Assembly (NCBI RefSeq): GCF_900890425.1
Contig: NZ_CAAHFG010000001.1
Coordinates: 2,914,001 to 2,978,000 of the forward strand
Source of the DNA: Pontiella desulfatans
GTDB lineage: Bacteria > Verrucomicrobiota > Kiritimatiellia > Kiritimatiellales > Pontiellaceae
Reading direction: 5' to 3'
DNA: 64,000 bases
Part shown: in pieces, positions 9,184 through 33,933 of the stretch
How the letters are laid out: each line of letters opens with the position of its first letter
Position numbering within the stretch: the first letter of the stretch is position 1
The notes under the pieces: model-generated
Database searches by the model: none
Told to the model about the DNA's origin: nothing
Seen by the model: the letters and a program-made list of their open reading frames with translations, nothing else
Program-made: the position numbers and the translations under genes

Positions 9184-10773
9184 CTATTTCTGGGTCACGA
9201 CCTTCCAGTCGTCGCTCCGGAAAGGTGCCAGCGGGAGCCCGGCACCGTTAAACAGGGTCACATCCGTCGGATTGATCCAGTTGGACCACAGATAACGCAC
9301 CGCGACGGGTTCTTTTACCTCCGGGCTGCTGATGACCAGCTTCCCTTTTTTCAGTTCCGCCGTTGCGCTTACAAACAGCTCGTCCGATCCGGCAATGCTG
9401 AATCCACGTATCGCATCGCCCTTTTGCTTCAATCCTTTCGTGTCTTTCAGCGAAACAATTGCTTTACCTGCCGCGAACTCGACCGACTCAAATGAAGGCC
9501 CGGCAAACTGGATATTATCGCCATAGACCGCTCCGCGTGCATAACGCGCGATTCGTTCACCGACCGGGCGCTTGTTGCGCGGATGAATATCCTTCTCGTC
9601 GCCCAGTTCCGGAATCGGAATGGTTCCAACGTTCGCATCGCCGGCGGCCACAGTCACCTGCGAGTCGCGCACAACCGCCCAGATGGGATGCTCCGCGCCG
9701 CCGCACCCGAAGCCCGGCAGCTGCACCACCAGAAATGGCAGGGACGGATCTTCAAAATCCCTCCGCCAGTTACCAATCAGCGTTTTGAGCACGAAGCGAT
9801 AGTCATAAGCCCGCCACATGTTGGATTCGCCCTGATACCACAACACGCCGCGAACCGAATACGGCAGGATCGGTGCGATCATTGTTCCATACAGCCCGCC
9901 TGCCCGGTGCGCGTGATAAGGCCCCATCGGTTCGACCGGCTTCTCCGGGCTCTTTTTATGCACAAACGCCTTCCAGTCCTCTTTGTACTGAATATAGGCC
10001 GCCTTATATTCATCAAAACCGGCATACTTCTCCTGATACGCTGCATCACACCAGGCGGCATACTCGGTGAACGGCTTGCAGCCGGCCGCAAAATCCGAAT
10101 CCATCCAGGCCTCCGCCGGGGTTCCGCCGCGGGCCGACATAATCAGCCCGACCGGCACATCCTTAAACCGTTCTTTGAGTGCGCGTCCGAAATACCACGT
10201 CACCGCGGAAAAGGCAGTTGAGCTTTCCTTCGTACATTTCTGCCATCCTTTAATCGGAAGATCTGCATCCAGCTCATTCACGATTTCCGACATGGCAAAC
10301 AGATGCAGTCCGTCAATCTCCGCCCCACCGGATTCAAAGAGCTCCGCCGCGCCGTCGGTGTTCCACAACGCCCAACGCATGTTGGACTGCCCACCCGCGA
10401 ACCAGACTTCGCCAACGAGGACGTCGGCGAATGAAACCTGAGACTTGAAACCTGAAACTTGAAGCTTCCGAGGTTTGGAAGAGGCGGGCATAGGATCAAG
10501 TGTTATCTTCCACTTGCCAGTGGCACTCGCCACTCCAGACTTCGTCTGGTCGGCAAATTGAACCGTTACCTTTTCGCCCGACTCAGCTGTACCCCAAACA
10601 ATGATCGGCTTATCACGCTGCAGTACCATGTTGTCGGTAAAGAGCGAACCAGTAGACAACTCAGCAAAAGTGCCCAGCGCGCATAGATTCAGAATGTAGA
10701 GCAAGCGTCCCGCTTGCTTAAACGAGCGGGACGCTCGTTCTACTTTTTCTGCAACAATCTCCCTGATCATCAT
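9184..10773 (-). CDS. Sialate-O-acetylesterase-like carbohydrate esterase (SASA family)
   Basis: SGNH-type secreted acetylesterase of 529 residues, likely removing O-acetyl groups from the glycan so that sulfatases and glycosidases can act. Motifs: GGQSNM with nucleophile Ser130, ARGGTPAEAWMDSDF, LWYQGESNM, and DIHPRNKRPVGERIARYA carrying the Asp/His pair. The beta-sandwich N-domain begins at LFTDNMVLQRDKPIIVWG. Three short repeat elements lie in frame in the first 115 codons. Codons 11-26 are a 48-bp near-palindrome just before the signal-peptide core (peptide VERASRSFKQAGRLLY), codons 76-86 are a double hairpin (QTKSGVASAT), and codons 103-113 are a direct repeat (KLQVSGFKSQV). All keep the frame open. 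The start overlaps the stop of the upstream GH5-like gene (ATGA). The family call is firm; the acyl substrate is unknown. Confidence 0.92.
   Translation of the reverse strand: MMIREIVAEKVERASRSFKQAGRLLYILNLCALGTFAELSTGSLFTDNMVLQRDKPIIVWGTAESGEKVTVQFADQTKSGVASATGKWKITLDPMPASSKPRKLQVSGFKSQVSFADVLVGEVWFAGGQSNMRWALWNTDGAAELFESGGAEIDGLHLFAMSEIVNELDADLPIKGWQKCTKESSTAFSAVTWYFGRALKERFKDVPVGLIMSARGGTPAEAWMDSDFAAGCKPFTEYAAWCDAAYQEKYAGFDEYKAAYIQYKEDWKAFVHKKSPEKPVEPMGPYHAHRAGGLYGTMIAPILPYSVRGVLWYQGESNMWRAYDYRFVLKTLIGNWRRDFEDPSLPFLVVQLPGFGCGGAEHPIWAVVRDSQVTVAAGDANVGTIPIPELGDEKDIHPRNKRPVGERIARYARGAVYGDNIQFAGPSFESVEFAAGKAIVSLKDTKGLKQKGDAIRGFSIAGSDELFVSATAELKKGKLVISSPEVKEPVAVRYLWSNWINPTDVTLFNGAGLPLAPFRSDDWKVVTQK
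10433..10468. repeat. In-frame tandem repeat inside the esterase gene
   Basis: Units of about 14 bp built on GAAACCTGA/GACTTGAAACCTG are repeated roughly 2.5 times with small differences. On the coding strand they read KLQVSGFKSQVS, between the N-domain and the conserved FADVLVGEVW block. The low-complexity repeat and its position between conserved blocks suggest an inserted element kept in frame. Confidence 0.7.
10519..10549. repeat. Double hairpin repeat inside the esterase gene
   Basis: Two adjacent perfect hairpins: AGTGGC-ACTC-GCCACT (10519-10534) and CCAGAC-TTC-GTCTGG (10535-10549). On the coding strand they encode residues 75-85 (DQTKSGVASAT), inside a loop of the N-terminal beta-sandwich. 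The paired palindromes resemble a mobile palindromic element tolerated as protein. Confidence 0.7.
10696..10743. repeat. 48-bp near-palindrome in the 5' end of the esterase gene
   Basis: The left half GTAGAGCAAGCGTCCCGCTT and the right half AGCGGGACGCTCGTTCTAC are reverse complements with few mismatches. The element is exactly 16 codons and encodes residues 11-26 (VERASRSFKQAGRLLY), just ahead of the signal-peptide hydrophobic core. Length and frame allow clean read-through. Confidence 0.8.
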
Positions 10774-12038
10774 TCAAACGTTCCCATTTTGCTGAAGAAC
10801 AGTTCCCAATCGTCGGTCGCATGCCAGAGCCGTTTCTGCTCCAGGCAGTCGTAGGTCCAGTAGAGCATACCGTTCACGTTCGCCTGCAGTGCGAGATCGC
10901 GAACAATGACCATATTATCGACGGCCTCCTCGAACGTTTTTTCAACGTGATCAAACGCGCCGAATTCGCCCATGATCAGCGGTTTCTTCATTCGAATGTT
11001 CTTCATCTCCCTGTCGAACAGGCCGGTTGATGCCAGATTATTTTCAAAGGCCCGCTCAACGGATTCCTTTGTATTGCCTCGATAAAAGTGGACATCGAGA
11101 AAATCCAGCGGACCGTCACCGAGCGCCGTCAGCGTGGGCGGATAGCGCTCATCCTTGAACCGGCCGGGCCACAGACCGGCGTCTGTTTCGTAATCCTTAC
11201 CGACCGCCCGCGGAACAAAAACCCCCTCGGCCACCAGCATGTCGGGATCGATGGCTTTAACAGCCCGAACCATACACTGATGATAAAAGCGGTAGCCGTC
11301 ATCCATCAGTGCCTGCCGCTCCTTCGTATCTGAAAGATCGTAGTGCTTTCCGTTGGCCGCCTTAAACTCCCCTTCCGTTTCCGAAAAAGGCCAGGCATCG
11401 GCCTTTAGATAGGCTTCGTTCTGGCACTGCAACCCCAGCAGTGTCGGCAACAGGGCCGGTTCTTTTTCTTTCACATACGCCAGGAAGGAGGTGATGAACT
11501 CGATGCGCGCCTTGATGCCCTCCTGGGTGAGGATCATGACGTTCTTGTTGTTTCCGGTCTTCCTGAACCGATCATAGTAATAGGCATTCCGCGGCAGCTC
11601 GCCGTCGCCGAAGGTGGGGAAGACGCGGATCCCGTGACGCGTCGCCCGCCGCAGGAAATCGAGCACGTTATCCATGTAGGGTTCATAGTTTCCCTGCGTC
11701 GTGTCGTAGTTTCCGCCGATGCCGGGGTTGGCCTTGCTGCGGCCGATGATGAACACCCGCACGGTGTTGTAGCCGTGTTTTTCCAGGGTTTGGAACATGG
11801 CCTCGGCACGCTCCGGTTCATAGTGCGCTTCGGTGCTGTCGGTGGCGGCATCAAAGGTCGAATGCCCCTGTTCCAGACGAACATAATTAAAGCCCTTCAC
11901 AAAGAAGGGCTTCCCGGAATCCTTCAGAACAAATTCCGCCCCATTGATCCCCGGATTAACCGCAATCCGTTCGAGCGGTTTCATCTCAGCTCTCGCAATC
12001 AGCGCACTCATCGTCAAAACTCCTATCAATACGTTCAT
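10770..12038 (-). CDS. GH5-like (clan GH-A) endo-glycosidase
   Basis: Secreted TIM-barrel hydrolase resembling GH5 mannanase/cellulase-type enzymes. The ATG at 12038 is chosen because it is followed by a signal peptide (MNVLIGVLTMSALIARA); the frame stays open to 12119, but that extension is made of repeat-like sequence. Blocks: PFFVKGFNYVRL, TVRVFIIGR, IRVFPTFGDGELPRN, LGLQCQNEAYL with likely acid/base Glu208, and KKPLIMGEFGAFD with likely nucleophile Glu358 (numbered from 12038). It ends WTYDCLEQKRLWHATDDWELF. It is clearly paralogous to the 25226-26542 gene and to the headless copy at 24395. The stop overlaps the downstream esterase start by 4 bp. Substrate is unknown; an internal linkage in the glycan backbone is likely by family. 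Confidence 0.88.
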   Translation of the reverse strand: MNVLIGVLTMSALIARAEMKPLERIAVNPGINGAEFVLKDSGKPFFVKGFNYVRLEQGHSTFDAATDSTEAHYEPERAEAMFQTLEKHGYNTVRVFIIGRSKANPGIGGNYDTTQGNYEPYMDNVLDFLRRATRHGIRVFPTFGDGELPRNAYYYDRFRKTGNNKNVMILTQEGIKARIEFITSFLAYVKEKEPALLPTLLGLQCQNEAYLKADAWPFSETEGEFKAANGKHYDLSDTKERQALMDDGYRFYHQCMVRAVKAIDPDMLVAEGVFVPRAVGKDYETDAGLWPGRFKDERYPPTLTALGDGPLDFLDVHFYRGNTKESVERAFENNLASTGLFDREMKNIRMKKPLIMGEFGAFDHVEKTFEEAVDNMVIVRDLALQANVNGMLYWTYDCLEQKRLWHATDDWELFFSKMGTFE

Positions 12039-12054
12039 CACGCGGCCTTTGGTT

Positions 12055-12106
12055 GTCTGGCTGTCGCACAGACTCGCTTCGCGTCGCAAAGAGCCACGTC
12101 CTACAC
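12055..12106. repeat. Dispersed-repeat-like sequence upstream of the GH5-like gene
   Basis: The stretch around CTCGCTTCGCGTCGCAAAG followed by GCCACGTCCTACA is rich in short inverted parts (TTCGCG/CGCGAA type) and looks like an extragenic repeat. It lies in the optional N-terminal extension of the GH5-like gene, which argues for the inner start codon at 12038. Confidence 0.45.
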
Positions 12107-12166
12107 TTATCGAAACCATTAAATTACTACCCCATAGTTAAAATATCGCGATTGTCCGGATTTTCT

Positions 12167-13712: not shown

Positions 13713-13783
13713 TTTTTTGATCACGAATTTCACGAATCGCACGAATCCAGATCTATTCGCGTGATTAGCGTGCTTGGTGATCA
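13713..13783. repeat. Dispersed A/T-rich repeat bounded by TGATCA
   Basis: The 71-bp segment begins TTTTTTGATCACGAATTTCA and ends GTGCTTGGTGATCA. It contains repeated ACGAATYNCACGAAT-like units and fills nearly the whole gap between two sulfatase genes. Its right TGATCA supplies the TGA stop of the chimeric sulfatase, so the repeat may have set that gene's end. Confidence 0.7.
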
Positions 13784-15673
13784 ATAACTCTGCGGAATCT
13801 TGTTCTTTCTGATCTCCGCGGTTCGTTGCTTCATAAATTTCTGCGCCTGGGTCGCAACCGGCCTGATCGCGATCCGCTCATCTTCAAGCTGATCCAGCGC
13901 CTTGCGCATCCGTTCGAGCTGCGGTTTATATTCCGGATCGTAGGCAAAATTACGCCCTTCATTCGGATCGCGCTCCAGATCGAACAACTGCTCGACCCCG
14001 GTTGCGTGCGTCTTCGCGCAGGGGGGCACACCCGTTATTTCATCGTTCTCGATATATTCGCGTACATACTTGATCGTACCGTCGCTCACCATGTGCATAT
14101 AGTTGCTGTTTTCCGCATACACAAACTCGCGCCAGTCGGCTTCCCGGCCTTCCACCAGCGGACGAACGCTCAGTCCGTGCGGAAGTGCCGCGCTGTCCGC
14201 CTGCGCGTAGTCGCACAGCGTCCGCCCAAGATCAACGCCGGACACCAGATGCTGATCATCCCGAATACCTTTGCGGACCTTCAGCTTTCCTAGCGCTGAA
14301 ACAATAAACGGCACGCGGCATACCTCGTCATAAAACGTCGACTTGGCCACCGTCCGGTGACGACTGATTCCCTCCCCGTGGTCAGACGAAAAGATGATCA
14401 ATGTGTTGTCCTTAAAGTCCGACTGCTCCAGCGCGTCGAGCAACACATCCACCTGACGATCCACCATCTCGGTGAAACGGTGATAGTTATAGCGGTGCAT
14501 CCGCCACAGATCATCGCCCCAATCATTGAACGAAGCCTTCTTTTTCTTCGCTGATCCGCGCTTGCAGGCCACCAGGATTCCCGGCTCGCGGGGATCATAT
14601 TCATGCGCCTCCGGCAGCGGTGGAATTTCGCCCTCCTCCAGCACGCCGTCCGCAACATACGGCGGAATCTTGATGCCATCGACCTTGGTCGAGCGCTCGG
14701 CATCGTAGCTGGGTGTAATGCATATATCGTGCGGATTCAGGTAGCCCAGACTCAGGAAAAACGGTTTGGAGCCATCATAGTGGTCCAGAAAAGAAACAGC
14801 ACTGCGGGTCACTTCCGTATCGGTCATCTCCCCCCACCAGCTGCCCTCGTGCAACACATGAAAAAGGTCGCGCACTTTTTTACCGGGCACATGCCACTTG
14901 CCGCTGAAATAGGTGTTGTAGCCCGCCTGCTGCAGCAGCCGTCCGGAACCGTCAACCCAGTAATACGAAGGAATAATGCCCGGCCCTTTATGCGTGTAGC
15001 CGTGCAGCATTACCTTGCGACCGCCGAAATCCGCCTCAAAATCTTCGAGAAATGCAATCGAGTGCCCGGATGAAAAACGCTCGAGATCTTCAAAGTAAGA
15101 AAAGGAAATGCGCCGGTCACGCGGCATGGTTTGCACAGCGGCCAGCAGACTCCAGTTGCAGGCAACCGGCCCGGCCTCCGCCTGCCGGTATAGATACGAA
15201 CTCCCGGATGCACCCTTCTTATAAATCCGGCCCTGGTTCAGCGACCCTTTCTGAAAGTAGGTCCGGTACGGCGCAGCCGGCGCGCTCTGCACATTGCGCG
15301 TTTCCGCTTCAATCTTCCAGTGCGACGAATCCTTCAACGAAAAAAGTTCATCCCGGTTGCAGTCAAATGCCGTCGTCAAAAACTCACGCTCCCTCGGAAA
15401 ATTCTGCCCCATCTGCCGCACGCTGTTCACCGTCAACCGAACCGAATTGCCGGCAAACGTTGCGCCCAGCCGCAGCGATCCGTAAATATATTTGTTCGGC
15501 TCCGTAAAATCCTGCGGTCCGGAATACACCAGGTCATACGAATTTTCCCAGTCCGACGACGGATCAAACGCCCCCGTCGGCAGCGTACTCTCCGCCGCCG
15601 AAAAGCCCTTCGGAAAAATCGTCTTCCGAAGCATCACATTATCGTCAAACGACCAGTGGTAATTCTCGCTCAT
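13781..15673 (-). CDS. Chimera: unassigned N-domain fused to a headless sulfatase
   Basis: A 630-residue protein with two parts. Residues 1 to about 245 are not sulfatase; they align in order with the 17070-18014 protein (for example HGYTHKGPGIIPSYYWVDGSG against EGWVLTGRGIHPTWFWKEKGG). From residue 246 (LLQQAGYNTYFSGKWHVPG) the protein is a sulfatase closely matching the 15670-17070 neighbour: SLGYLNPHDICI, FSSDHGEGISRHR, STFYDEVCRVPFIVS. The first roughly 115 sulfatase residues, with the metal-binding Asp pair and the C-x-P-x-R motif, are missing. The join falls in CGG CTG CTG CAG CAG, a likely microhomology point. There is no signal peptide. The start overlaps the Tat sulfatase stop (ATGA). 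Interpretation: a tandem copy of the two-gene module collapsed by an in-frame deletion. It cannot be a normal sulfatase. Confidence 0.88.
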   Translation of the reverse strand: MSENYHWSFDDNVMLRKTIFPKGFSAAESTLPTGAFDPSSDWENSYDLVYSGPQDFTEPNKYIYGSLRLGATFAGNSVRLTVNSVRQMGQNFPREREFLTTAFDCNRDELFSLKDSSHWKIEAETRNVQSAPAAPYRTYFQKGSLNQGRIYKKGASGSSYLYRQAEAGPVACNWSLLAAVQTMPRDRRISFSYFEDLERFSSGHSIAFLEDFEADFGGRKVMLHGYTHKGPGIIPSYYWVDGSGRLLQQAGYNTYFSGKWHVPGKKVRDLFHVLHEGSWWGEMTDTEVTRSAVSFLDHYDGSKPFFLSLGYLNPHDICITPSYDAERSTKVDGIKIPPYVADGVLEEGEIPPLPEAHEYDPREPGILVACKRGSAKKKKASFNDWGDDLWRMHRYNYHRFTEMVDRQVDVLLDALEQSDFKDNTLIIFSSDHGEGISRHRTVAKSTFYDEVCRVPFIVSALGKLKVRKGIRDDQHLVSGVDLGRTLCDYAQADSAALPHGLSVRPLVEGREADWREFVYAENSNYMHMVSDGTIKYVREYIENDEITGVPPCAKTHATGVEQLFDLERDPNEGRNFAYDPEYKPQLERMRKALDQLEDERIAIRPVATQAQKFMKQRTAEIRKNKIPQSY

Positions 15674-18457: not shown

Positions 18458-19338
18458 TTATTTCTCCAGATGTAAAGTCACAGAAATCACTTCACCAACG
18501 CCGGATCCGGCTTTCGCATCGGCAGGCACGCCCAGTGAGAGCGGCGTGGTTCCCGCCGGAAGATCAACGGAGCCGAAGAGGATCCTGTCCGCCGAGCGGC
18601 TTATTACTTCCACCGATATTCCATCAACCAGCAAATCGATAGGTGCGCATTGGTCGAATCCCTTCCCTTTTGCAACGATTGAAACGGTGAGCGGTTTCTG
18701 CACTTCAACGGCATAATCCACCCGGTCGCCCGGAGAACGGAACCCTTTCACGCCGCCGAGCCAGGCATGCATATTCATATCGCCCTCCAGATGCAGCGGC
18801 TGAAGAACCGGGATTTTCCACGCCTTGTCAGGACGGTCGGCATTGTTGATTCGAAGCTGTCGCATCTGGAACGTGCGATTTCGTGCGGCAATGTCTTCCC
18901 ACTGCGCACGGCAGTGCTGGGCCATCGCCTTCGTGCGCTCGGGATATTTTGAGCTCAGGTCGTTTTGCTCGGCCGGGTCTTTTTCCATGTCGTACAGACG
19001 GAACTCGCCGCCCGGCAGATGGTGGAACTTATATTTTCCGTTGCGTAAAATGGTATGCAGCTTTCGATAGCTGACTCCGTCCGCCACGACCGGATTCCCT
19101 TGCCCCGCCCCGCCGGGGGTGCCGGGACCACCGGAAGCCAGACGAAAAATGTCGCGATCATCCGAAAACCTGCGGTCTTTCAATGAGCCGCTGAAGCTCG
19201 TCCCGGAAAACGGGAGATGCTCCGGATGCTTATCTTCCGGAATTAGGCAGAGCTCTAGCAACGTAGGCAGCACATCCTCCACGCCGATCACATGCCTGCG
19301 GATTCCGGGTTTAATTTTTCCCGGCCAGCGAACCAATA
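18458..19338 (-). pseudogene. Split sulfatase, 3' half
   Basis: C-terminal half of a sulfatase interrupted by an IS630-type element. It resumes at LVRWPGKIKPGIRRHVIGVED and continues through the HLPFSGTSFSGSLKDRRFSDD block, YKFHHLPGGEFRLYDMEKDP and the C-terminal beta domain (VDYAVEVQKPLTVSIVAKG, ISVTLHLEK). It matches the intact 30686 and 33949 genes almost end to end. If the element and one TA are removed, the codons at the join read CGC AGT CCG CTA TTG GTT CGC TGG (RSPLLVRW), exactly the paralogue sequence. The gene was therefore intact before insertion. An internal Met could start a fragment, but it would lack the catalytic half. Confidence 0.93.
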
Positions 19339-19777: not shown

Positions 19778-20326
19778 ATGCAGATGCTTCCTACCCTGGA
19801 TCCGCATGCGCTGGTGTTTCTAGACGAATCCGGGGCGAAGACCAACATGACCCGGTTGCGAGGACGATCTCCCGGCGGGTCCCGCCTCTATGCCCATGCT
19901 CCGCATGGCCATTGGTGCACCACGACATTGATCTCTTCAATCCGGCTGAACGGAGAAACAGCAGCCATGGAGTTGCCCGGGGCCACGGATTCGCTCGCCT
20001 TCCGGACCTATGTTGAGGTCGTGCTGGCTCCGAGCCTCCATGACGGGGATGTCGTGGTCATGGACAACCTGGGCGCACATTATGACGAAGCGGCCATAAT
20101 CATGATCGAAAGTCGCGGAGCACGGGTTCTTTTTCTTCCCCCATATAGCCCCGACTTCAATCCCATCGAAAAGATGTGGAGCAAGATCAAGAGCCTGCTG
20201 AGAAAGCTCGAGGCCCGTACCCGGGAAGAGCTTTCCGCTGCAATCACAAATGCTTTTGAGGCCGTAACGGCCAAGGATGCAGAAGGTTGGTTTTCATCGT
20301 GCTACATTACGGCATTACAATCGTGA
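19778..20326 (+). CDS. IS630 transposase, DDE catalytic segment (orfB)
   Basis: C-terminal DDE_3 catalytic part of the IS630 transposase. Motifs: HALVFLDESGAKTNM (first Asp), DGDVVVMDNLGAHY (second Asp), and LPPYSPDFNPIEKMWSKIK (catalytic acid, the typical IS630 ending). Its coding continues upstream in the same frame to the A8 run at 19714-19721, so the ATG at 19778 is probably internal to the fused product. The stop lies just inside the right inverted repeat. Confidence 0.9.
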   Translation: MQMLPTLDPHALVFLDESGAKTNMTRLRGRSPGGSRLYAHAPHGHWCTTTLISSIRLNGETAAMELPGATDSLAFRTYVEVVLAPSLHDGDVVVMDNLGAHYDEAAIIMIESRGARVLFLPPYSPDFNPIEKMWSKIKSLLRKLEARTREELSAAITNAFEAVTAKDAEGWFSSCYITALQS

Positions 20327-20333
20327 TATGCTC

Positions 20334-21230
20334 TAGCGGACTGCGGATGCCGTTGTCCCAGACCTCGCCCTTGCGGCCGATCAGGTTTCCAGGATTACGA
20401 ATCCCCCAATCCGGGGAGTGCGGATTCTTGGGTTTCGCGTTTTCCCAGACGCCCATCTCCTGCTGCCCCATCGCATCTAGCGATCCATTGTCACTCATGA
20501 AGAGCACAATAGTATTCTCCGCCTGACCGGTTTCCTTGACCGCCTTCAGCAGGCGCGCAATCTGGTCGTCCATCTGTTTGATCGAGCCATAGCACTGGGC
20601 AATATCTTCCGAATAGCCCTTTTTACGAAACGGTTCGGCATAGGACTCGGGGCAATACCAATCCAGATGCGGAATCACATAGCCCACGTAGGCCAGCCAC
20701 GGCTTGTCGCCGGCCTGCCGTATTTTTTCAACTGCGGCATCTGTGATCAGCTCCGCGCCCCAGCCCTGCTTATTTCTCTGGGCATACCCCGCCCCCGGGA
20801 GGAATGAATCAAATCCGCGGTCAATGGGCGTCATCTCCATCATATGTAGCCCTCCGTCCATTTTACCGAACGCCCAGGCCGCATAGCCAGACGGAGAGAA
20901 AAACTTCGGCATCAGCGTTTCATCACGCCGCACCCGACCGCGCGAGCCCACACCCCACACGCCCATATCGAGATGATGACGACCGGCAAACAACGACGCG
21001 CGAGTCGGCGTACAGGCCGGCCCGACCACAAAGTGCAGATAAAACGCCGACTCCCTTGATAACCGATCCAGGGTTGGAGTCTGCACCACCTTATTGCCCG
21101 TAAACCCGAAATCCCCATATCCCTGGTCATCCGAAATAATCAGCAGAATGTTGGGCGAACGTGACGCGCCATCTACATCAGCAAAAGCACCGCATGCAAA
21201 AACCAACCCTACAACCATCCACTTAATCAT
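20334..21230 (-). pseudogene. Split sulfatase, 5' half
   Basis: N-terminal half of the IS-interrupted sulfatase. Sec signal peptide, NILLIISDDQGYGDFGFTG with metal-binding Asp pair at 34-35, and maturation motif C73-T-P-T-R. It continues through TPSGYAAWAFGKMDGG-like sequence, QCYGSIKQMDDQIARLL and IVLFMSDNGSLD to VWDNGIRSPL, where the IS630 begins. Read into the IS it gains EHITIVMP and stops. The fragment has the catalytic Cys but lacks the C-terminal subdomain. Compared with the 30686 gene it is also shorter by about 15 residues near the GGYLHQQPELW region, so it had already diverged before the insertion. Confidence 0.93.
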
Positions 21231-21277: not shown

Positions 21278-22720
21278 TCAGTTTGAAAACACAACTGATT
21301 CAGGATCACCCGTCGCGCGCATTTCCTCTTCCAGCGCCCGTTTATATTTTTCGATCCGGCCTTTTTGCTCCGGGTTGCCGATCAGGTTGTTCCAGCAACC
21401 GGGATCTTTCCGCGTGGAATAAAATTCTTCCGGCGGGCGACGGACCAGATGCTCCGCGCGGGCGCGCTCCCGCTCTCCGGAGCGCTTCATCATCTGGATC
21501 AACGGATAGCCGGCATCAAAGGCATTCACACGCTCCGGGTCGCGCAGCGAATGGATATTAAAGACATAGGTATATTCTTTGCCGATCATTGCACGACCGG
21601 GAAAATACGCTCTTGGTTCCGATTGGGCATAATAGGTCATCGCGGCATAGACAAACTCACGCCATTCATCCGGAGTATTCCCTTGAAGAATCGGCCAGAG
21701 CGACTTGCCTTCCAGTCCCTTCACTTCCGGCAGCCCGACCGCCTCAATCACCGTCGGCATGATGTCGATGGACGATACCAAATGCGTTTTATCCACCACA
21801 CTGGGTTGGATCTTTCCCGGCCACGAAAAGATTAGCGGGGTTCGCGTGCTGCTGTCATAGAGCGAGCGCTTCGCGCCCGGCGGCAGCATTCCATTGTCCG
21901 AAAGAAAGATAATCAGCGTGTTTTCCGCCTCGCCGCTCTCCTCCAGAGCGCGGAGGACGGCTCCGATGCAGAGGTCGCCACGGTGCACGGAATCATAATA
22001 CGGGGCGATGTGTTTGCGGATCTCCGGTGTATCCAGGAGATAGGCGGGAACATACACCTCATCGGGATCAAACTGCGTGGTGGCTTCCGGATAAGGATCG
22101 TCTGGATTCCACTCCGCCCGCATGGTCGCTTCGCTTTTCGTGCGCGGCCACGGGTCGTGCGGATCGATCGGGTTAGCATAGAGGAAAAACGGCTTGTCCG
22201 CGTTTTTGGCATTTTCAATCACCAATTGGGTGCGTTCGAAAAACGCATCCGGATCGCGGTCTTTCGCGCCGACCCCGAACGGCTTTTCATGAAAACGGAT
22301 ATCAAAGGTCGGGTTGAGCTGCCGGCTGTTCTTGAGGATGGCGCCGGTATAATAGCCATTCTCGTGCAGGTAGGTGTCCAGGCGGGGCGTGATCACTTCC
22401 GGGGCGACCCACCCTTCCGGCGGCTGCTGTCCATGCCCCATGCTGCCCGAGCAATGCGGATAACGCCCCGTCAGCATCGCGTTACGCGACGGCCCGAAGA
22501 TCGTGCTGGCCACATGGGCATGGTGAAAACGGAATCCCTGCCCGGCCAGCCGGTCGATGTTCGGCGAAATACCGGGAATCGTACAGCCCGTCACCTCCAG
22601 CGAATCCCAGTTCATATCATCCACTGTCAGCAACAGCACATTCGGGGAACGGGACGCTCCCTGCACCATCGCACTGATCATCATGGCCGCGACCAATAAA
22701 TCTTTCATTTTTAGTTTCAT
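21278..22720 (-). CDS. Sulfatase with Phe in place of the catalytic Cys
   Basis: Full-length sulfatase of 480 residues with signal peptide, NVLLLTVDDMNWDSLE (Asp pair 34-35), YFPGRAMIGKEYTYVFN, FLYANPIDPHDPW and IFLSDNGMLPPGAKRSLYD. At the maturation site it reads H-V-A-S-T-I-F75-G-P-S-R: the Cys or Ser that would become formylglycine is Phe, codon TTC at 22498-22496, one base from TGC. Everything around it is conserved (P77, R79), so the active site seems lost by a point change. An AGGAG box precedes the ATG. Either a recent inactivation, a sequencing error, or a non-catalytic binding protein. Confidence 0.92.
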   Translation of the reverse strand: MKLKMKDLLVAAMMISAMVQGASRSPNVLLLTVDDMNWDSLEVTGCTIPGISPNIDRLAGQGFRFHHAHVASTIFGPSRNAMLTGRYPHCSGSMGHGQQPPEGWVAPEVITPRLDTYLHENGYYTGAILKNSRQLNPTFDIRFHEKPFGVGAKDRDPDAFFERTQLVIENAKNADKPFFLYANPIDPHDPWPRTKSEATMRAEWNPDDPYPEATTQFDPDEVYVPAYLLDTPEIRKHIAPYYDSVHRGDLCIGAVLRALEESGEAENTLIIFLSDNGMLPPGAKRSLYDSSTRTPLIFSWPGKIQPSVVDKTHLVSSIDIMPTVIEAVGLPEVKGLEGKSLWPILQGNTPDEWREFVYAAMTYYAQSEPRAYFPGRAMIGKEYTYVFNIHSLRDPERVNAFDAGYPLIQMMKRSGERERARAEHLVRRPPEEFYSTRKDPGCWNNLIGNPEQKGRIEKYKRALEEEMRATGDPESVVFSN

Positions 22721-22814
22721 TATAAAACTCCTGCTCTCAATTCAAACTTTCTTATCATCGATTCCCTTCGGGTAAGCGATCGCGACACCCTGCTCTGCAT
22801 ATCTTGTGTAGGGA

Positions 22815-22873: not shown

Positions 22874-24343
22874 CTAGCCCTCTTCCACGCCATACTGAGC
22901 ACGTAATTCGTCCATGGTTTCATGCGTAATCGGATATTTCCGAAGGATAAAAAAGGAAACCACCATCAGGACCGGCCCGACGATGAAGGTCATCAGCGCC
23001 AGGTTATCGAGCGTATCGGCCGTCTGCTTTTCCGCACCGGAAACATAGCCGACCCCTTTGAGAATATAGCCGGTCACAAAAAGTCCGAGCGCTGTGGCAG
23101 CCTTCATGAAGAAAGAGAATCCGGCGGCATAGCGCCCCTCCGTCACCTCGCCGGTTTTCAGTTTTTTCAGCGCCGAAAGATCCGCGATCATAGCCATGGC
23201 CAGCGGCACCAAAATCCCACATCCGCCCCACCACAGCGTCTGCAAAACTCCGAAGACCACCGCAGAAAGATGGAAGGCTTCGCCTTTATAGTCCACAAAC
23301 AGCTGAACCGCTTTCGGTTCCATCAGCCCACCGCTGAAAATCGCCAGCAGCGCGAGGCAGCCCGCGGAACCGATAATCATGGCGAGGTATCCGGTTTTTT
23401 TCTTATCCAGCCGCTTCACTAATCCGCCGAGCAGAAGAGATCCCAGCATGAACCCGACCATCCCGCCCGTATGCACGAAGGTTTTTTCCAGAGCGGAAAA
23501 CCGCATGTATTCCACATAGGTAAACATCTGCACCTGCGAAACCACCATCATGGAAAACTGGGCCAGCCCGAAAAAGCCGAACACAAACCAGACCAGTTTA
23601 TCGGAATAGACATCCTTCAGGTCATGGATAAATGCCTTCAGATGATTCCCTTGGTCTTTGTCCTCAATCTTAAGCTGCCCCTTGTCGGAAAATTTAAAGG
23701 TAACAAAAACACAGAAGAGAACCAGTAGCAGGGCACAGACCGTCAGTATGACCCCCATGCCATTAAAATTTTCCGCGATCTTCGTTCCGTCTATCTTCGT
23801 TCCGTCCGCCGCTTTTCCGTCGGGAAAAAACAGGATCCAGCCCAGTCCGCCGAACACTATGTTAATGATCATGTTGAAACCGCACCGCACGCCCTGAATC
23901 CGGGCGCGATCATCATCGGTTTTGCACATTTCAAATCCAAGGGCGGTAAACGGCACCACAAAGACCGTAAAGGCGGTTTTAATGAGGATGTTGATACCCA
24001 CGAGATACCCGAAGAGCCGCTTTTCACCCTGAAAGGATTCCGGCACAAACCAAAGGAAGAAAAACAGGACGGCCAGTAGCAGTCCACCGATCAGCATATA
24101 CGGGTGGCGCCGCCCAAACCGACTCGTGGTTCGGTCGGAAACCGTGCCCATGACCGGATCGGTGAACGCGTCATAAATGGTTCCGATTCCAAAAGCGATA
24201 CCGGCGAGCTCTGGGCTCAACCCCATAATCTGTGTGTAGAACAGCATCGCATAGTTGGCAATCCCGTTCATGGTGATCGAGTTCGCCCCTTCGCCCGAGG
24301 CATAGCCCCATAGATCACGGATTTTCAGTTTTTTTATGTTCAT
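22874..24343 (-). CDS. GPH-family sugar/cation symporter (MFS_2)
   Basis: Inner-membrane transporter of 489 residues of the glycoside-pentoside-hexuronide:cation symporter family, probably importing mono- or oligosaccharides released by the array. About twelve hydrophobic segments are visible. The family signature DAFTDPVMGTVSDRTTSRFG with RRHPYMLIGG lies near residues 58-88. A charged middle loop (KFSDKGQLKIEDKDQGNH, about 220-237) separates the two halves, and ALGLFVTGYILKGVGYVSG lies near the end. A short internal tandem duplication (DGTKIDGTKIA) sits in a loop near residue 180. The neighbours are the headless GH5-like gene upstream and, after the hairpin gap, the Phe-site sulfatase. With no SusC/SusD in the window, this and the 50841 gene are the only uptake candidates seen. 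Confidence 0.93.
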   Translation of the reverse strand: MNIKKLKIRDLWGYASGEGANSITMNGIANYAMLFYTQIMGLSPELAGIAFGIGTIYDAFTDPVMGTVSDRTTSRFGRRHPYMLIGGLLLAVLFFFLWFVPESFQGEKRLFGYLVGINILIKTAFTVFVVPFTALGFEMCKTDDDRARIQGVRCGFNMIINIVFGGLGWILFFPDGKAADGTKIDGTKIAENFNGMGVILTVCALLLVLFCVFVTFKFSDKGQLKIEDKDQGNHLKAFIHDLKDVYSDKLVWFVFGFFGLAQFSMMVVSQVQMFTYVEYMRFSALEKTFVHTGGMVGFMLGSLLLGGLVKRLDKKKTGYLAMIIGSAGCLALLAIFSGGLMEPKAVQLFVDYKGEAFHLSAVVFGVLQTLWWGGCGILVPLAMAMIADLSALKKLKTGEVTEGRYAAGFSFFMKAATALGLFVTGYILKGVGYVSGAEKQTADTLDNLALMTFIVGPVLMVVSFFILRKYPITHETMDELRAQYGVEEG

Positions 24344-24394: not shown

Positions 24395-25120
24395 TTAATC
24401 CGAGAGCTCCTTCAGGAAGGCTTCATCTTCCATCGCCTGCCAGATGCACCGTTGCTCAAAAGTATCAAAAGTCCACATCATGTACCCCTGTGCGTTATCG
24501 CCCAGGGCCAGATCTCGGGTCTTAAGGATGTTCTTGCGAGCCTGATCAAACGTGGTGGCTATAAACTTAAAGGAACCGAACTCTCCGAGGATATACGGTT
24601 TATCCTTCAGAACACCCTGCATCTCCTGCGAATATAATCCGGTGCTCTTCATATCCAGGCGGTAGCTCTCCTCCAGCGTGGTGGATGGCTTGGTGTAGTA
24701 GACATGGACATCAACAAAATCCAACGCCCCATTCAGGATCGTGGAGGCTTTGGGCGGACAGCGAGGATCGCGCCTGCCCATGTTCCGTATGCCGTAATGT
24801 TTTCCCTCATAATCTTTGCCGACCGCGCGCGGGACAAAAACACCCTCCCCGACCAGCATGGAAGGTACCACCTCTTTAACGGCCTTGGACACCCGGGCAT
24901 GATAGGAGAGGATCGAATTCTCATACAACGCCTGCCGCTGGTCATCCTGACTCATATCATACGCCCGGCCATCCGGACCTGTAAACATCCCCTCCGTAAG
25001 GGTAAACGGCCATTGCCTCCCATTCAGTGAAAACTCATCCATTTCCATAGTTCCACATCCCATTCCACCGTAACCAAAACAAAGAAGTCTTCCTCGCAGA
25101 GCCGCAGAGCATTTACTCAA
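24395..25120 (-). pseudogene. Headless GH5-like gene, 5' half replaced by repeat
   Basis: C-terminal half of a GH5-like enzyme related to the 25226 and 10770 genes. Matching starts near residue 25 (EMDEFSLNGRQWPFTLTEG) and runs through MLVGEGVFVPRAVGKDY, DFVDVHVYYTKPSTTL and KPYILGEFGSF with nucleophile Glu180. About 210 residues, the first half of the barrel including the signal peptide, are missing. Residues 1-15 are read from a dispersed repeat (25088-25167) and the proposed start is a TTG in it. The reading frame is otherwise intact, so the deletion may be recent. A functional enzyme is unlikely. Confidence 0.85.
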
Positions 25121-25225: not shown

Positions 25226-26542
25226 CTAATCCTTATCCAGCTCAAAGGTGCCGAGCTTGCTGTAGAACAGATCCCAGTCGTCGGTCGCATGCCAGAGCAG
25301 CTTCTGCTCCAGACAGTCGTAGGTCCAGTACAGCATACCGTTCACCCTTTCCTTCAGCACCAGGTCGCGGACGATCACCATGTTGTCGACCCCTTCCTCG
25401 AACGTTTTTTCCATAAAGTCAAAGGCGCCGAATTCCCCAACGATGATCGGTTTCATCTTGCGGATCTCCGCCATTTCGGGGGCATAAAATCCGGTAGAAT
25501 CCAGACTGTGTTTCACCGCCTCTTCGACAGATTTACGACGGTTGTGGCGATAAATATGGACATCGAGACAGTCGAGCGGGCCGTCGCCCAGGCTCGTCAG
25601 CGTGGGCGGATAGCGTTTGTCCCTGTATTTCTCCGGCCACAGACCGGCCGAATTTTCGGTATCCTTGCCGACCGCCGCCGGCACAAATACGCCCTCGGAG
25701 ACCAGCATCTCCGGATCAATCGCCTTCACGGCATCGACCACACGACCATGATAATAGCGATAGCCCTCGTCCATCAGCGCCTGGCGTTCTTCCGTGCTGG
25801 AAAGGTCATAGGTTTTTCCATTGGCCGCGGTAAAGTTTCCTTCAATCCGGCTGAAGGGGAGTTTATCGGCCTCGAGGTTCGCCTCGTTCTGGCACTGCAG
25901 CCCCAGCAGGGTCGGCAGTACCGCGGGCTCCTTCGCCTTAATATACGACAGGAAGGAAGTGATATATTCCACCCGGGCATCCACGCCCTCCGCAGAAAGG
26001 ATAAACAGGTTTTTCTCCTCGTTATCCCCGTTGAAACGCTTCAGGAAATAGTCGTTGTTCGGAAGCTCGCCGTCTCCAAAGGTTGGAAAAACGCGGATAT
26101 TATGGCGGGTCGCGCGGCGCAGGAAATCGAGCACGTTTTCCATATAGGGTTCATAGAGCCCTTTCGTGGTTTTGTATTCCCCGGCGATACCGGGATTGAA
26201 GGGTTCGCGCCCGATGATGAATACACGAACCGTGTTGTAACCCGAATCCTCCAGTCTCTGAAACATGGCCTCGGCGCGGTCTGGATCATAATCGGCCTTC
26301 GAGAATTCTGTATCGGCTTCAAAGGTCGAATGATCCCCGCCGGGCGTTCCGTCTTCCTTGCGCAGGCGGATATAGTTAAAGCCTGATACATGAAAAGGCG
26401 TCTCGGAATCCTTGAGCACAAACTGCGCCCCGTCCTTGCCTGGCTCAATACCAATCCGCTCTAGCGGTTCAAGCGTTCCCGCACCTGCCGTTGCCACGGT
26501 GGCAACAGCAACCACCCCTTTCAAACAACTCGTTTTCGACAT
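25226..26542 (-). CDS. GH5-like (clan GH-A) endo-glycosidase
   Basis: Secreted TIM-barrel hydrolase of 438 residues, the best preserved of three GH5-like copies. Signal segment with VVAVATVATAGAG; FHVSGFNYIRL-type start of the barrel near 50; TVRVFIIGREPFNPG; IRVFPTFGDGELPNNDY; LGLQCQNEANL with probable acid/base Glu220; LDVHIYRHNRR; KPIIVGEFGAFDF with probable nucleophile Glu370; and the terminal WTYDCLEQKLLWHATDDW. It is longer at residues 62-72 (RKEDGTPGGDH) than the 10770 copy. It lies 8 bp after the 26551 sulfatase, so the two are co-transcribed. Mannanase-like or related endo-activity is only a family-level guess. Confidence 0.9.
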   Translation of the reverse strand: MSKTSCLKGVVAVATVATAGAGTLEPLERIGIEPGKDGAQFVLKDSETPFHVSGFNYIRLRKEDGTPGGDHSTFEADTEFSKADYDPDRAEAMFQRLEDSGYNTVRVFIIGREPFNPGIAGEYKTTKGLYEPYMENVLDFLRRATRHNIRVFPTFGDGELPNNDYFLKRFNGDNEEKNLFILSAEGVDARVEYITSFLSYIKAKEPAVLPTLLGLQCQNEANLEADKLPFSRIEGNFTAANGKTYDLSSTEERQALMDEGYRYYHGRVVDAVKAIDPEMLVSEGVFVPAAVGKDTENSAGLWPEKYRDKRYPPTLTSLGDGPLDCLDVHIYRHNRRKSVEEAVKHSLDSTGFYAPEMAEIRKMKPIIVGEFGAFDFMEKTFEEGVDNMVIVRDLVLKERVNGMLYWTYDCLEQKLLWHATDDWDLFYSKLGTFELDKD

Positions 26543-29102: not shown

Positions 29103-30689
29103 CTACCGTACAAAAAGCGGACCGACCGGCTCGGGCAGCGCATTATCAGCCTGCGGGTTGTAACGCTTGTTCAGGCTGGTGTCATACCGGGCGGGAATAT
29201 GTTCAAAACGCCATTTGGCCAACGCCTTTTTCATGCGCCCTACCCGTTCGGGCATCGATGCGGAAAGGTCTTTGGCTTCGCCGATGTCTTTCGACAGATC
29301 AAACAGCCGCATCACTCCGTCATGGTAGGCGATCAGTTTGTAGTCGCCTTCAATCATCACCGAACTGGGGGCCGTCATCGGAGAACCTTCCGTAAGGTGA
29401 TCCGGCCTGTAATACGGTTCATGGATAAAGACCGCGCGTTTTTCAAAATCGTCGGGGCGATTCTGTAACAGCGGAACCAGCGATTTTCCCGACCACTGCT
29501 TCTGGATTTTTTCAGGCACCTGCTTACCGGCCAGGGCCGTCAAGGTCGGGGCAACATCTTCCAACGTAACCGGCGTGTCGACCCGGTGCCTTTCTCCATT
29601 CGGCACATACATCATCATCGGCACACGGATTCCGCCTTCAAACGTCTGGGCTTTCTGTCCGCGCAACGGCGTATTGCTGGTCCAGCGCGCCCCCTTCTTG
29701 ACGGCCTGACCGCCATTATCCGAGGTAAACACGATGATCGTATGGTCCGCTACCCCCAACTCCTTGAGGGTCGCGCGGATCGCTCCGACGGAATCATCAA
29801 GCGCCCGGATCATTCCAGCATAGGCAGGGTTGTCCTGCCCGTTCCAGCCGCGGGTTTTCTTCGTTGAAAAATAGGCCACATCCTCCGGCCTGGCCTCGAT
29901 CGGTCCATGAACCGCAAAATGCGCCAGATAGAGCAGGAACGGTTGCTCCGGTTGCTTTTTGACATGCCTGCGAATCCAGTCTGTGCTCAACTCCGTGAGA
30001 TCGTCGGTCAAATATTCGGTCTGCGCCTCCGGCCCGGGATGGTGCCATTTTTTACGCACCCCTTTATGATATTTCGACCACCCCTCATCCTCGTAGGTGA
30101 TCGCCTCAAACCCGAAATCCTGCGGGCGGTGCCCTTCCAGATCGTTTCCGCCGATATGCCACTTGCCGAGGAAGGCACTTCGATACTCCGGCAGCATTTC
30201 CGCCAGCGAATACACCTTCTGCCCCCGGCTGTCGGGCAGCCCGTTCGGCAGGGCATAATTTCCCGTTGCCGTAGCGACCGGAAACGTCGGATTCGTTCCG
30301 GGCATCTTATCATGAAACTGGTACTCAGCCGGCGGTTCCAACCCGTTCTGGGCAAACGTAAACTTGCCTGCTCTCATGGCCGTAGCATTGTTGAACCCGA
30401 AGGTCGCCCCGTTGCGACCGGTGATAATCGTGGCGCGCGACGGCGAGCAGAGCGGCATGCTGTAGCAGCGCGAAAAGGCAACCCCGTCTTTCGCCAGGTC
30501 ATTAAGATGCGGTGTTTCATAATATTGATCGTTCGCCGGTGTGTCTGTGGCGAATTCCGCCGTTGGGTTAATATCCATAAACCCCAGATCATCCGCCATA
30601 ATCAGCACAATATTCGGTTGATCGGCATGGGCATTAAACACGCCGCATAACAGCGCAACATAAATAGCTGTTTTCAATCTATTCATCAT
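29103..30689 (-). CDS. Sulfatase (type I)
   Basis: Secreted sulfatase of 528 residues. Signal peptide ending VFNAHA; Asp pair 33-34 in LIMADDLGFMDINPT; maturation motif C81-S-P-S-R; FLGKWHIGGNDLEGHRPQDFG; YLAHFAVHGPIEARPED; IVFTSDNGGQAVKKGARWTSN with PLRGQKAQTFEGGIRVPMMM. The order and long spacer after the Asp pair (EFATDTPANDQYYET) resemble the 37405 gene and define a subfamily common in marine PVC bacteria. Start overlaps the stop of the 30686 gene (ATGA); the spacing downstream is 8 bp. Substrate unknown. Confidence 0.95.
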   Translation of the reverse strand: MMNRLKTAIYVALLCGVFNAHADQPNIVLIMADDLGFMDINPTAEFATDTPANDQYYETPHLNDLAKDGVAFSRCYSMPLCSPSRATIITGRNGATFGFNNATAMRAGKFTFAQNGLEPPAEYQFHDKMPGTNPTFPVATATGNYALPNGLPDSRGQKVYSLAEMLPEYRSAFLGKWHIGGNDLEGHRPQDFGFEAITYEDEGWSKYHKGVRKKWHHPGPEAQTEYLTDDLTELSTDWIRRHVKKQPEQPFLLYLAHFAVHGPIEARPEDVAYFSTKKTRGWNGQDNPAYAGMIRALDDSVGAIRATLKELGVADHTIIVFTSDNGGQAVKKGARWTSNTPLRGQKAQTFEGGIRVPMMMYVPNGERHRVDTPVTLEDVAPTLTALAGKQVPEKIQKQWSGKSLVPLLQNRPDDFEKRAVFIHEPYYRPDHLTEGSPMTAPSSVMIEGDYKLIAYHDGVMRLFDLSKDIGEAKDLSASMPERVGRMKKALAKWRFEHIPARYDTSLNKRYNPQADNALPEPVGPLFVR

Positions 30690-32521
30690 TTCTCCAACTT
30701 CAGGGTCAACTTAAGCACCTCACCAATCGCCGTGCCAGCTTTGGCATCATTCGCTACGGCCAACGAAAACGGGACCGTTCCCGACGGCAAAGCAATAGGG
30801 CCAAAAACGTTTTTTTCGGCCGAGCGGCTTTTGGCAGTGACCGGTTTCCCATCAATCAGCAGGCTGATCGGTGCGCATCGGTCGAAACCTGTACCTTCGG
30901 CGATGAAAGAGACCGTCAGCGGCTTCTGTACTTCAACCGCGTAGTCGGCGCGGTCCCCTGGGTAGCGGAATCCTTTCACGCCGCCGAGATAATCGTGCAT
31001 GTCCATTTTGCCGGTCAGACGCAACGGCTGCAGCACGTTGATATTCCAGGATGCGCCTGGTCGGTCGGCGTTGTTAATCCGCAGCTGCCGCATCTGGAAG
31101 GTGCGGTTGCGCGCGGCGATATCGTCCCAGCGCAACCGGCAGCGTTGGGCCATGGCCTCGGTGCGCTCGGGATATTCTGCGCTCAGGTCGTTTTGCTCGG
31201 CCGGGTCCTTTTCCATGTCGTACAAACGGAATTCGCCCCCCGGCAGATGGTGGAATTTATAGTTCCCGTTACGCAGAATGGTGTGCAGGGAAGAGTACCG
31301 CAGCGTTTTCATATCGGGCGTATTGGCACCCTCTCCGACCGGAACGCCGGGGCCGCCGGTTGCCAGGCGGAAAATGTCGCGATCATCGCTAAACGTTCGA
31401 TCTTTCAGCGAGCCGCTGAAGCTTGTTCCGGAAAAGGGGAAATGCTCCGGATGTTTCTCCTCCGGAATCTGAGCCAGCTCCAGCAGTGTGGGCAGTACAT
31501 CTTCCACGCCGACCGGCTGCTTGCGGATGCCGGGCTTGACTTTTCCGGGCCAGCGAACCAGCAGCGGACTGCGGATACCGTTGTCCCACACCTCGCCCTT
31601 GCGGCCGATCAGATTGCCCGGATTGCGAATGCCCCAGTCCGGCGAATGCGGCCGTTTGGGTTCACTGTTTTCCCAGACCCCCATCTCGCGGTTGTTCATC
31701 GCATCAAGCGACCCGTTATCACTCATAAACAGCACAATCGTATGTTCCGCCTGGCCAGCTTCCTCGACCGCCTGGAGCAACCGGGCGATCTGATCATCCA
31801 TCTGCTTAATCGAGCCATAGCACTGGGCAATATCTTCCGAATAGCCTTTTTTGCGGAACGGCTCGGCATACGACTCCGGTGAATCCCACCACAGGTGCGG
31901 AATAATGTGCGCCATCACCGCGAGCCAGGGTGTATCTCCCGCCTCATTGATTTTTTCAATCGCCGCATCGGTGATCAGCTCCGCGGACCAACCCTCCGTC
32001 CACGTACGCCCTTCCGGTGTCCAGAGTTCCGGCTGTTGATGCAGATACCCGCCGGTGATTCCGCAAAACCAATCAAACCCGCGGTCCGACGGCGTCATTT
32101 CCATCATTTCCAGACCGCCATCCATTTTACCGAACGCCCAGGTTTTGTAGCCGGATGGGGTGAAGAATTTCGGGATCAGCGTTTCGTCGCGCCGCACCTT
32201 GCCGCGCGAGCCAACTCCCCAGACCCCGGTATCCAGATAATTGCGACCGGTAAACAGCGATGATCGCGTCGGCGTACAGGCCGGGCCGACCATGAAATAG
32301 GGATAAAAGGCCGACTCTGCAGCGAGCCGGTCAATCGCCGGTGTCTGCACCACATCGTTACCTGTAAACCCAAAGTCCCCGTAGCCCTGATCATCAGAAA
32401 TAATCAGCAGAATGTTTGGCATTTCCGATTGCCGATCTCCGATTGCCGATTGAAAAGCAGCAACAGACAGCCCAAACACCACCAACCTCTTCACATTCTT
32501 CATAACCGTTAAGTTGAACAT
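30686..32521 (-). CDS. Long sulfatase with C-terminal beta domain; in-frame repeat at signal cleavage site
   Basis: Sulfatase of 611 residues. ATG at 32521 is chosen because GGAGAAG precedes it at 6 bp; a GTG two codons upstream is possible. The signal peptide is followed by QSAIGDRQSE, read from a tandem DNA repeat, then NILLIISDDQGYGDFGFTG, maturation motif C82-T-P-T-R, FGKMDGGLEMMEM, IPHLWWDSPESYAEP and IVLFMSDNGSLDAM. After YKFHHLPGGEFRLYDMEKDP comes a C-terminal beta domain of about 100 residues (VDYAVEVQKPLTVSFIA-like, ending VLKLTLKLEK). Paralogues: 33949 and the IS-split gene. It sits 2 bp after the TIM-barrel gene and overlaps the 29103 start. Confidence 0.93.
   Translation of the reverse strand: MFNLTVMKNVKRLVVFGLSVAAFQSAIGDRQSEMPNILLIISDDQGYGDFGFTGNDVVQTPAIDRLAAESAFYPYFMVGPACTPTRSSLFTGRNYLDTGVWGVGSRGKVRRDETLIPKFFTPSGYKTWAFGKMDGGLEMMEMTPSDRGFDWFCGITGGYLHQQPELWTPEGRTWTEGWSAELITDAAIEKINEAGDTPWLAVMAHIIPHLWWDSPESYAEPFRKKGYSEDIAQCYGSIKQMDDQIARLLQAVEEAGQAEHTIVLFMSDNGSLDAMNNREMGVWENSEPKRPHSPDWGIRNPGNLIGRKGEVWDNGIRSPLLVRWPGKVKPGIRKQPVGVEDVLPTLLELAQIPEEKHPEHFPFSGTSFSGSLKDRTFSDDRDIFRLATGGPGVPVGEGANTPDMKTLRYSSLHTILRNGNYKFHHLPGGEFRLYDMEKDPAEQNDLSAEYPERTEAMAQRCRLRWDDIAARNRTFQMRQLRINNADRPGASWNINVLQPLRLTGKMDMHDYLGGVKGFRYPGDRADYAVEVQKPLTVSFIAEGTGFDRCAPISLLIDGKPVTAKSRSAEKNVFGPIALPSGTVPFSLAVANDAKAGTAIGEVLKLTLKLEK
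32420..32455. repeat. In-frame tandem repeat at a signal-peptide junction
   Basis: CCGATTG/CCGATCT-type heptads (TTCCGATTGCCGATCT then CCGATTGCCGATTG) repeat in tandem. On the coding strand they give QSAIGDRQSE, between the signal peptide core and the first strand of the 30686 sulfatase. The paralogues at 33949 and 20334 have no such segment, so the repeat appears inserted. Confidence 0.7.
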
Positions 32522-32523
32522 AA

Positions 32524-33933
32524 TCACTTCTCCAAAAAATCCAGCAAATCGATACTCTGTGGCGACAACGCCGAAAGAGGTATATCGCGTACAGCCTCAC
32601 GATCGGCAGGCCGGACCTTCACCTGCTGTTCCGCAACCGAAAGCACCACACAGTTCATGCTGCGCCCCTGCTTATCCACGAGTTCAACCACATAGCCGGC
32701 TTTGCCGACTTCGTTCTTCGCAGCCCGAAGCTGCTCCACGCTTTCAGGGGCCAGCAATTCGAAGGCAATCTTCCGCTGCGCACCGCTCTTCAGATCAAGC
32801 AGCACCGCGGCCTCCTCATATACCGAAAAAACCTTTACCTTCAGCGGCCTGTTTTTGCGATCCGCAAGCACCATCTGGGCTCCACCTAATGAGGTTGCAA
32901 CCACCCTGAACTTCGGCGGCAGCGGTTTGCCCTTATGGGTGTGAATAAAATCGCGGGCCAGATTCATAAAGGTATACGGCTCATCCTCCGGCAGCTCGAC
33001 GGTGGGATGCTTATACCAGGACTGTATGGTGCCCATCGTTGGCCGTAGATCATGCTTCTGCACCTGTTGCAGACAATGTATCACCCCTTCATAAAAGGCC
33101 TGGTTTGATACGTTTCCACCTTCATGGTCGTTAAAGAGGAAAATAAAATCCATCCCGTTCGACCGGCAGAACTGCTCCATCGCCTTCAGCTTACCCCAAC
33201 CGTTTCGGGTATTTTCAATCCGCTGATAGGAATATTCGGGCTGGAACATATCCAGCTTCGTACCCTTCTCCTCACAGGCCTTCATCACATCCAGCAGCAG
33301 TTCCTTCAGATCACCCTGCGACTTCTTAGGATTTCCTTCGGGGGGAAACTGTTCCGGATCCTCCCAGTAAAAGCGAAATGCGGCTTCGATCATACCGATT
33401 TTTATATTCGGATACTTTTCCTTCACTCCCGCGACAAACGTCGCATAGCGCTCTACGGCCTCCTCATAGCTCCAGTTATACTCCTCTTTCGCCCAGCCCT
33501 GTGATTTAATAAATACGTTGTCGGTCACCAGGAAATCAACCCGACCTCCCGCTTCCGTAATCGGATCGAGCAACCGACTAATCAGGTTTTCGTGGCCATG
33601 TCGAATACCGACTTCAATCCCCACTCCGAGATTCAGTTCCGACAGCCGCTGCATAATGGTGCGAAGCAATTCAGGTTCGCCTCGGCACAGGCGTCCCATA
33701 GGTGTTGAATAAAACTTAAACTGCGATAGGTTTTCAGCAACGTAGCTCCATTCATCCAACCGATGTTCGAACAGATCTTCAAAACAACGGAACACAGTCT
33801 CAGCATCCGCTTTCTGTCCTGTTGTAATCGCCGGACAAATCGACATCTGCATGGGAGCGGGTTCCGCCGCCTTTAAAGGAAGCACAAAGAGCAAAAGCCC
33901 CAGCTGGCTGATCCACTGTTTCATTTTCACCAT
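32524..33933 (-). CDS. Unassigned secreted TIM-barrel-like protein with SHD1-like tail
   Basis: Protein of 469 residues with a signal peptide (LGLLLFVLPLKAAEPAP). I do not recognise the catalytic family. The first 370 residues alternate predicted strands and helices as in a (beta/alpha)8 barrel: LGVGIEVGIRHGHE, VDFLVTDNVFIKSQGW, IKIGMIEAAFRFYWEDPE, LDMFQPEYSYQRIEN, FIFLFNDHEGG. Several Glu/Asp at strand ends (GIEVG, MIEAAF, FQPEYS, FNDHEGG) could be catalytic, as in GH-A glycosidases. The last 60 residues (YVVELVDKQGRSMNCVVLS, IPLSALSPQSIDLLDFLEK) match the SHD1-type beta domain found on PVC secreted proteins. Stop lies 2 bp before the 30686 sulfatase start and it follows the 33949 sulfatase by 15 bp. 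Confidence 0.75.
   Translation of the reverse strand: MVKMKQWISQLGLLLFVLPLKAAEPAPMQMSICPAITTGQKADAETVFRCFEDLFEHRLDEWSYVAENLSQFKFYSTPMGRLCRGEPELLRTIMQRLSELNLGVGIEVGIRHGHENLISRLLDPITEAGGRVDFLVTDNVFIKSQGWAKEEYNWSYEEAVERYATFVAGVKEKYPNIKIGMIEAAFRFYWEDPEQFPPEGNPKKSQGDLKELLLDVMKACEEKGTKLDMFQPEYSYQRIENTRNGWGKLKAMEQFCRSNGMDFIFLFNDHEGGNVSNQAFYEGVIHCLQQVQKHDLRPTMGTIQSWYKHPTVELPEDEPYTFMNLARDFIHTHKGKPLPPKFRVVATSLGGAQMVLADRKNRPLKVKVFSVYEEAAVLLDLKSGAQRKIAFELLAPESVEQLRAAKNEVGKAGYVVELVDKQGRSMNCVVLSVAEQQVKVRPADREAVRDIPLSALSPQSIDLLDFLEK

Follow-up and report, generated by a model that had tools for sequence, protein, structure and literature searches.

Phenylalanine at the catalytic cysteine position of a Pontiella desulfatans sulfatase: a probable point-null allele in a degrading locus

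The formylglycine (FGly) of S1 (type I) sulfatases is made only from Cys or Ser, which occupies the first place of the motif C/S-x-P-x-R. The proline of this motif (Pro77 in the protein described here) matters for recognition by formylglycine-generating enzymes (FGE). For the 4058 sequences aligned in the SulfAtlas report, the nucleophile is given as Cys in 3202 and as Ser in 857, with no other residue, and nine sulfatases from Lentisphaerae and Planctomycetes lacking Arg55 were suggested to be inactive (PMC5066984). Compared with the protein studied here, these Arg55-less sequences are likewise a loss from the catalytic signature in sulfatase-rich PVC bacteria; the Arg was lost there and the nucleophile is lost here. 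The sulfatase fold without its Cys is also known from the C84S and C84A variants of PsS1_NC (PDB entries 6pt6 and 6ptk), which are laboratory-made, whereas the loss considered here is natural. A full-text literature search, which covered few subscription papers and is therefore weak evidence of absence, returned no natural nucleophile-less S1 sulfatase or pseudo-sulfatase. For Pontiella desulfatans F1, the genome paper gives 8.6 Mb, 521 sulfatases, 20 FGE-domain genes and a hybrid HiSeq/PacBio assembly, states that Ser-type sulfatases are absent, and lists 5 and 6 contigs for strains F1 and F21 (PMC6388578). The genome analyzed in this work, probably that of strain F1, has 8.66 Mb in 6 contigs and 20 FGE-domain matches.

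The gene under study lies in a P. desulfatans stretch of 64,000 nucleotides, hereafter the window (Table 1). Its reading frame is unbroken from ATG to stop. Read directly, the codon for residue 75 is gaa on the plus strand and hence TTC on the minus; the context of the encoded Phe is ASTIF-G-P-S-R-NAMLTGR. Only the first residue of the formylglycine-maturation motif is thus altered and the remainder is intact. The protein matched Pfam family Sulfatase (PF00884, E 1.5e-38, profile positions 1-300 of 301) as well as SGSH_C, and its N-terminus carries a hydrophobic leader that is signal-peptide-like by appearance. A scan for promoters and terminators was uninformative (3 promoter-like sites vs 5.6 in shuffled sequences; 13 terminator-like sites vs 9.7). 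An AlphaFold2 model obtained with 15 relatives as input had a sulfatase fold that was complete (mean pLDDT 86, pTM 0.89). The nearest solved structures found by Foldseek were the S1_8A lambda-carrageenan sulfatase (9bb9/9bes) and the human sulfamidase SGSH (4mhx/4miv), with TM scores of 0.69-0.77, and S1_8A was again top-ranked in the sequence search. The protein has in common with S1 sulfatases the fold, both Pfam domains and the invariant Asp, Lys, His and Arg residues; it differs from them in having Phe where they have Cys or Ser, and its identity with S1_8A and SGSH is only 24-25%. The gene is probably, by origin, a secreted S1-type carbohydrate sulfatase of the ordinary kind.

Table 1. 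Features of the sulfatase gene and its neighbours in the window.
Feature	Position	Strand	Evidence or remark
TTC codon, Phe75 at sulfatase nucleophile position	22496..22498	-	Cys in 57/57 aligned relatives
S1-type sulfatase ORF, intact, 480 aa	21278..22720	-	ORF call, Pfam, predicted structure
Catalytic signature F-G-P-S-R-N-A-M-L-T-G	22466..22498	-	Pro77, Arg79, Thr84, Gly85 kept
AGGAG, Shine-Dalgarno-like, 7 nt before ATG of the 480-aa ORF	22728..22732	-	Sequence
Asp34-Asp35, metal-site pair, invariant, kept	22616..22621	-	Alignment; role by motif homology
Lys130, invariant, kept	22331..22333	-	Alignment
His188, invariant, kept	22157..22159	-	Alignment
Asp275, metal-site residue, invariant, kept	21896..21898	-	Alignment; role by motif homology
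Lys284, invariant, kept	21869..21871	-	Alignment
Next sulfatase gene, N-terminal part, with Cys, cut off by insertion element	20307..21230	-	47 bp downstream
IS630-type transposase ORF (DDE_3), within the interrupted sulfatase gene	19778..20326	+	Pfam
C-terminal part of the interrupted sulfatase	18458..19336	-	Alignment to paralogue
MFS_2 sugar transporter, upstream neighbour	22874..24343	-	Pfam
Glycosidase-like gene without N-terminal half, upstream beyond MFS_2	24395..25120	-	Covers only residues ~219-451 of paralogues

The replacement of the catalytic Cys by Phe, proposed in the original prediction, was confirmed by alignment with 57 near-full-length homologues (at least 225 bits and 32-46% identity; weaker, partial and identical sequences were excluded), which sets F75 exactly on the nucleophile column, where every one of them has Cys. 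That normal formylglycine chemistry is impossible with Phe, as had also been stated, follows from established knowledge. In a maximum-likelihood tree the protein was sister, with support 100/99, to a sulfatase from a Bacteroidales MAG (locus L058, contig JAOZUK010000083.1), which shares 46% identity with it and has C-G-P-S-R at the position of F-G-P-S-R. As this sister and all the remaining relatives have Cys, the Phe arose on the terminal branch of the protein. On alignment and tree it is thus a derived and unique loss of an essential residue and not a conserved trait of a paralogue group, and the proposal of a binding-only paralogue, understood as a conserved class, was rejected by the comparison of orthologues that had been suggested to check it (Phe in 0/57). 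In a tally that was not used, four far homologues (L005, L089, L081 and L051) have the letters T, T, S and H at this column. These look like alignment slips, given that a Cys lies no more than four residues away in L089, L081 and L051 and that the context of L005 is shifted. A relative closer than L058 was found neither in a set of 58 relatives nor, at E<=1e-70, in 387 genomes of the phylum, 27 of which matched. The same held, at E<=1e-75, for 297 relatives of the L058 genome, 4 of which matched, and for genome contigs (32 loci), and viral contigs gave no match.

The uniqueness of the Phe was also observed within the genome itself. A home-made sulfatase profile was applied to 121 stretches amounting to 2.41 of 8.66 Mb (28%), mostly picked where sulfatases had already been seen. 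It found 422 ORFs, from which 24 without the nucleophile column were set aside (12 at stretch edges and 12 internal, these being fragments, chimeras or false hits). Among the 398 rows covering the column (396 distinct sequences, some stretches overlapping), 396 have Cys, one has Phe, which is the gene under study, and one has Tyr. The Tyr belongs to a 74-aa stop-to-stop remnant (L179:449-670, plus strand; C1 near 300.7 kb) located just before an intact sulfatase. No Ser was found at the column in these rows, which represent 28% of the genome, and this agrees with the absence of Ser-type sulfatases declared for F1 (PMC6388578). When the whole genome was searched with the motif carrying Phe, 37 matches were obtained, compared with 38 in a reversed control; of the 30 matches with a locus only the gene at 21278-22720 is a sulfatase, and the remaining 7 had no locus. 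A chance misreading of the motif was rejected for this gene, as Pfam, alignment and tree all put F75 on the nucleophile.

Apart from this residue the active site is preserved. Of the 19 residues that are fully invariant in the 57 relatives, 18 are kept, including D34, D35, P77, R79, G85, K130, H188, D275 and K284, and the Cys is the only loss; the active-site and metal roles of D34, D35, R79, K130, H188, D275 and K284 were assigned by motif and not by structure superposition. The description of the sulfatase as otherwise fully conserved was therefore nearly right. Among the 63 columns conserved in at least 90% of the relatives, 5 deviate when F75 is counted (E42, F75, H237, H390 and R393). The relatives themselves show from 0 to 8 such deviations, and the Cys-bearing L058 shows 7. 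The lack of the K-x-H histidine (K130-N-S here) was considered as a second lesion and discounted because this residue is not invariant in the relatives and is absent from L058 too. With so many invariant residues kept and so few deviations, the protein lacks, as far as its residues indicate, the eroded pocket to be expected of an old pseudo-enzyme. A rough calculation from the absence of stops and the 18 untouched residues, which assumes neutrality and assumed ts:tv weights, limited the substitutions since selection ceased to at most about 52 (3.6% of sites) at 95%; in it, 2.9% of neutral changes yield a stop and 2.7% strike a kept residue. The open frame and the untouched residues would therefore mean either that the loss is recent or that the protein is still maintained somehow.

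The neighbouring genes are broken. Against the intact paralogue at 30689-32596, the two parts of the downstream sulfatase gene cover residues 37-345 and 346-636, both at 73% identity, and since they join exactly at paralogue position 345/346 the insertion was clean. No other full copy of the IS630-type element was found in the genome, where the other matches were 8 partial ones at 67-68% and two of 45 bp, and its terminal repeats were sought and not resolved. On the upstream side, the gene at 24395-25120, which has an intact paralogue beside it, aligns with its paralogues (25226-26542 and 10770-12119, identity about 41%) in their C-terminal half only, and likewise only with the C-terminal half of the gene of the L058 locus (34% identity); no remnant of the missing half was detected in roughly 100 bp before it. 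Two members of this glycosidase-like family in the window and the one from L058 had no Pfam match, and that at 10770-12119 is weakly GH5-like (Cellulase). Because a member of this glycosidase-like family, 33% identical to 25226-26542, accompanies the Cys-bearing sulfatase in the L058 locus, the comparison suggests that the window locus once served a similar pathway.

Other damaged or atypical genes were also observed. In this window, which is rich in sulfatases, the sulfatase at 13781-15673 (minus strand) covers PF00884 positions 83-300 only, the Cys-bearing part being absent, and for its first 240 residues neither a Pfam family nor a second ORF of the surveyed 2.41 Mb gave a match; it is a putative nucleophile-free chimera or fusion. 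Two more transposase-type ORFs (DDE_Tnp_1 and rve_3) lie at 48575-50595. Elsewhere in the genome a sulfatase is split by a single in-frame TGA (L206:5288-6706, minus strand; C1:2220956-2222266), and C3:1054935-1056104 is the second sulfatase match with an in-frame TGA, two being present among the matches listed.

The original prediction had offered a recent null mutation, a base-call error or a binding-only paralogue without choosing among them, and the local gene decay favours the first. We consider it probable that one point mutation changed an ancestral TGC codon to TTC (Cys75Phe) in a dispensable, degrading sulfated-polysaccharide locus. With neither Cys nor Ser at the site, no formylglycine would be formed and sulfate esters would not be hydrolysed, while the rest of the protein would still fold and is probably made. 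Selection on the pathway is probably relaxed, because the locus is already degrading, its next sulfatase being interrupted by an insertion element and its glycosidase-like gene truncated. In sequence terms the loss is probably recent, and the retention of Pro77 and of all other invariant residues fits this. Against a null allele count the intact ORF, Shine-Dalgarno-like site and leader, the lack of any second lesion, and a nearest relative that is only 46% identical. The decay of the neighbours is in turn circumstantial support. As regards relaxed selection on the gene itself, broken neighbours stand against an open frame.

The same preserved pocket is what a retained pseudo-enzyme would show, that is, a protein which lost catalysis and was kept as a secreted binder of sulfated glycans through its intact metal and substrate sites. 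Both the kept invariant residues, metal and substrate-side ones included, and the entire fold of the model agree with it, and the PDB titles of the PsS1_NC variants name bound oligosaccharide or sulfate, so that Cys-less sulfatases can still bind. However, the sequences searched held no second case of Phe, the proline of the maturation motif has been retained, the neighbouring genes are broken and the bulky Phe might block sulfate binding in the pocket, and we regard this reading as unlikely. Its more specific form, in which a dead sulfatase was recruited for glycan capture and naturally binds sulfated glycans like a lectin or senses them, is more doubtful still. If the Phe codon were an error of assembly or base calling, or had become fixed in the cultured stock alone, the natural gene would have Cys; TTC and TGC are one base apart and the gene was seen in one assembly only. 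Isolated substitution errors outside homopolymers are uncommon in hybrid HiSeq/PacBio assemblies. The likely strain was assembled from both types of reads (PMC6388578), and such an error is improbable. Some other members of the alkaline phosphatase superfamily use Thr or Ser, and Ser72 and Ser78 are close to the site, but Phe cannot act as nucleophile, neither Ser opens the C/S-x-P-x-R motif, and Ser78 is the usual PSR serine, which Cys enzymes, L058 among them, also have. A shifted nucleophile was consequently rejected, and a working enzyme with any other chemistry is very improbable.

A single-base null in a degrading locus explains everything by known processes, and the most likely reading is an ordinary sulfatase allele made null by a point mutation while its locus decays. 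Had the protein been kept as a binder, it would be a natural pseudo-sulfatase, for which the literature search gave no match. Taken as a null allele, the gene is a small and clear case of dead members even in a record-sized sulfatase repertoire (about 520). The locus holds at least two sulfatase genes, this one and its IS-split neighbour, which should not work although a count by profile could take them for enzymes, and sulfatase gene counts would then overstate enzyme capacity.
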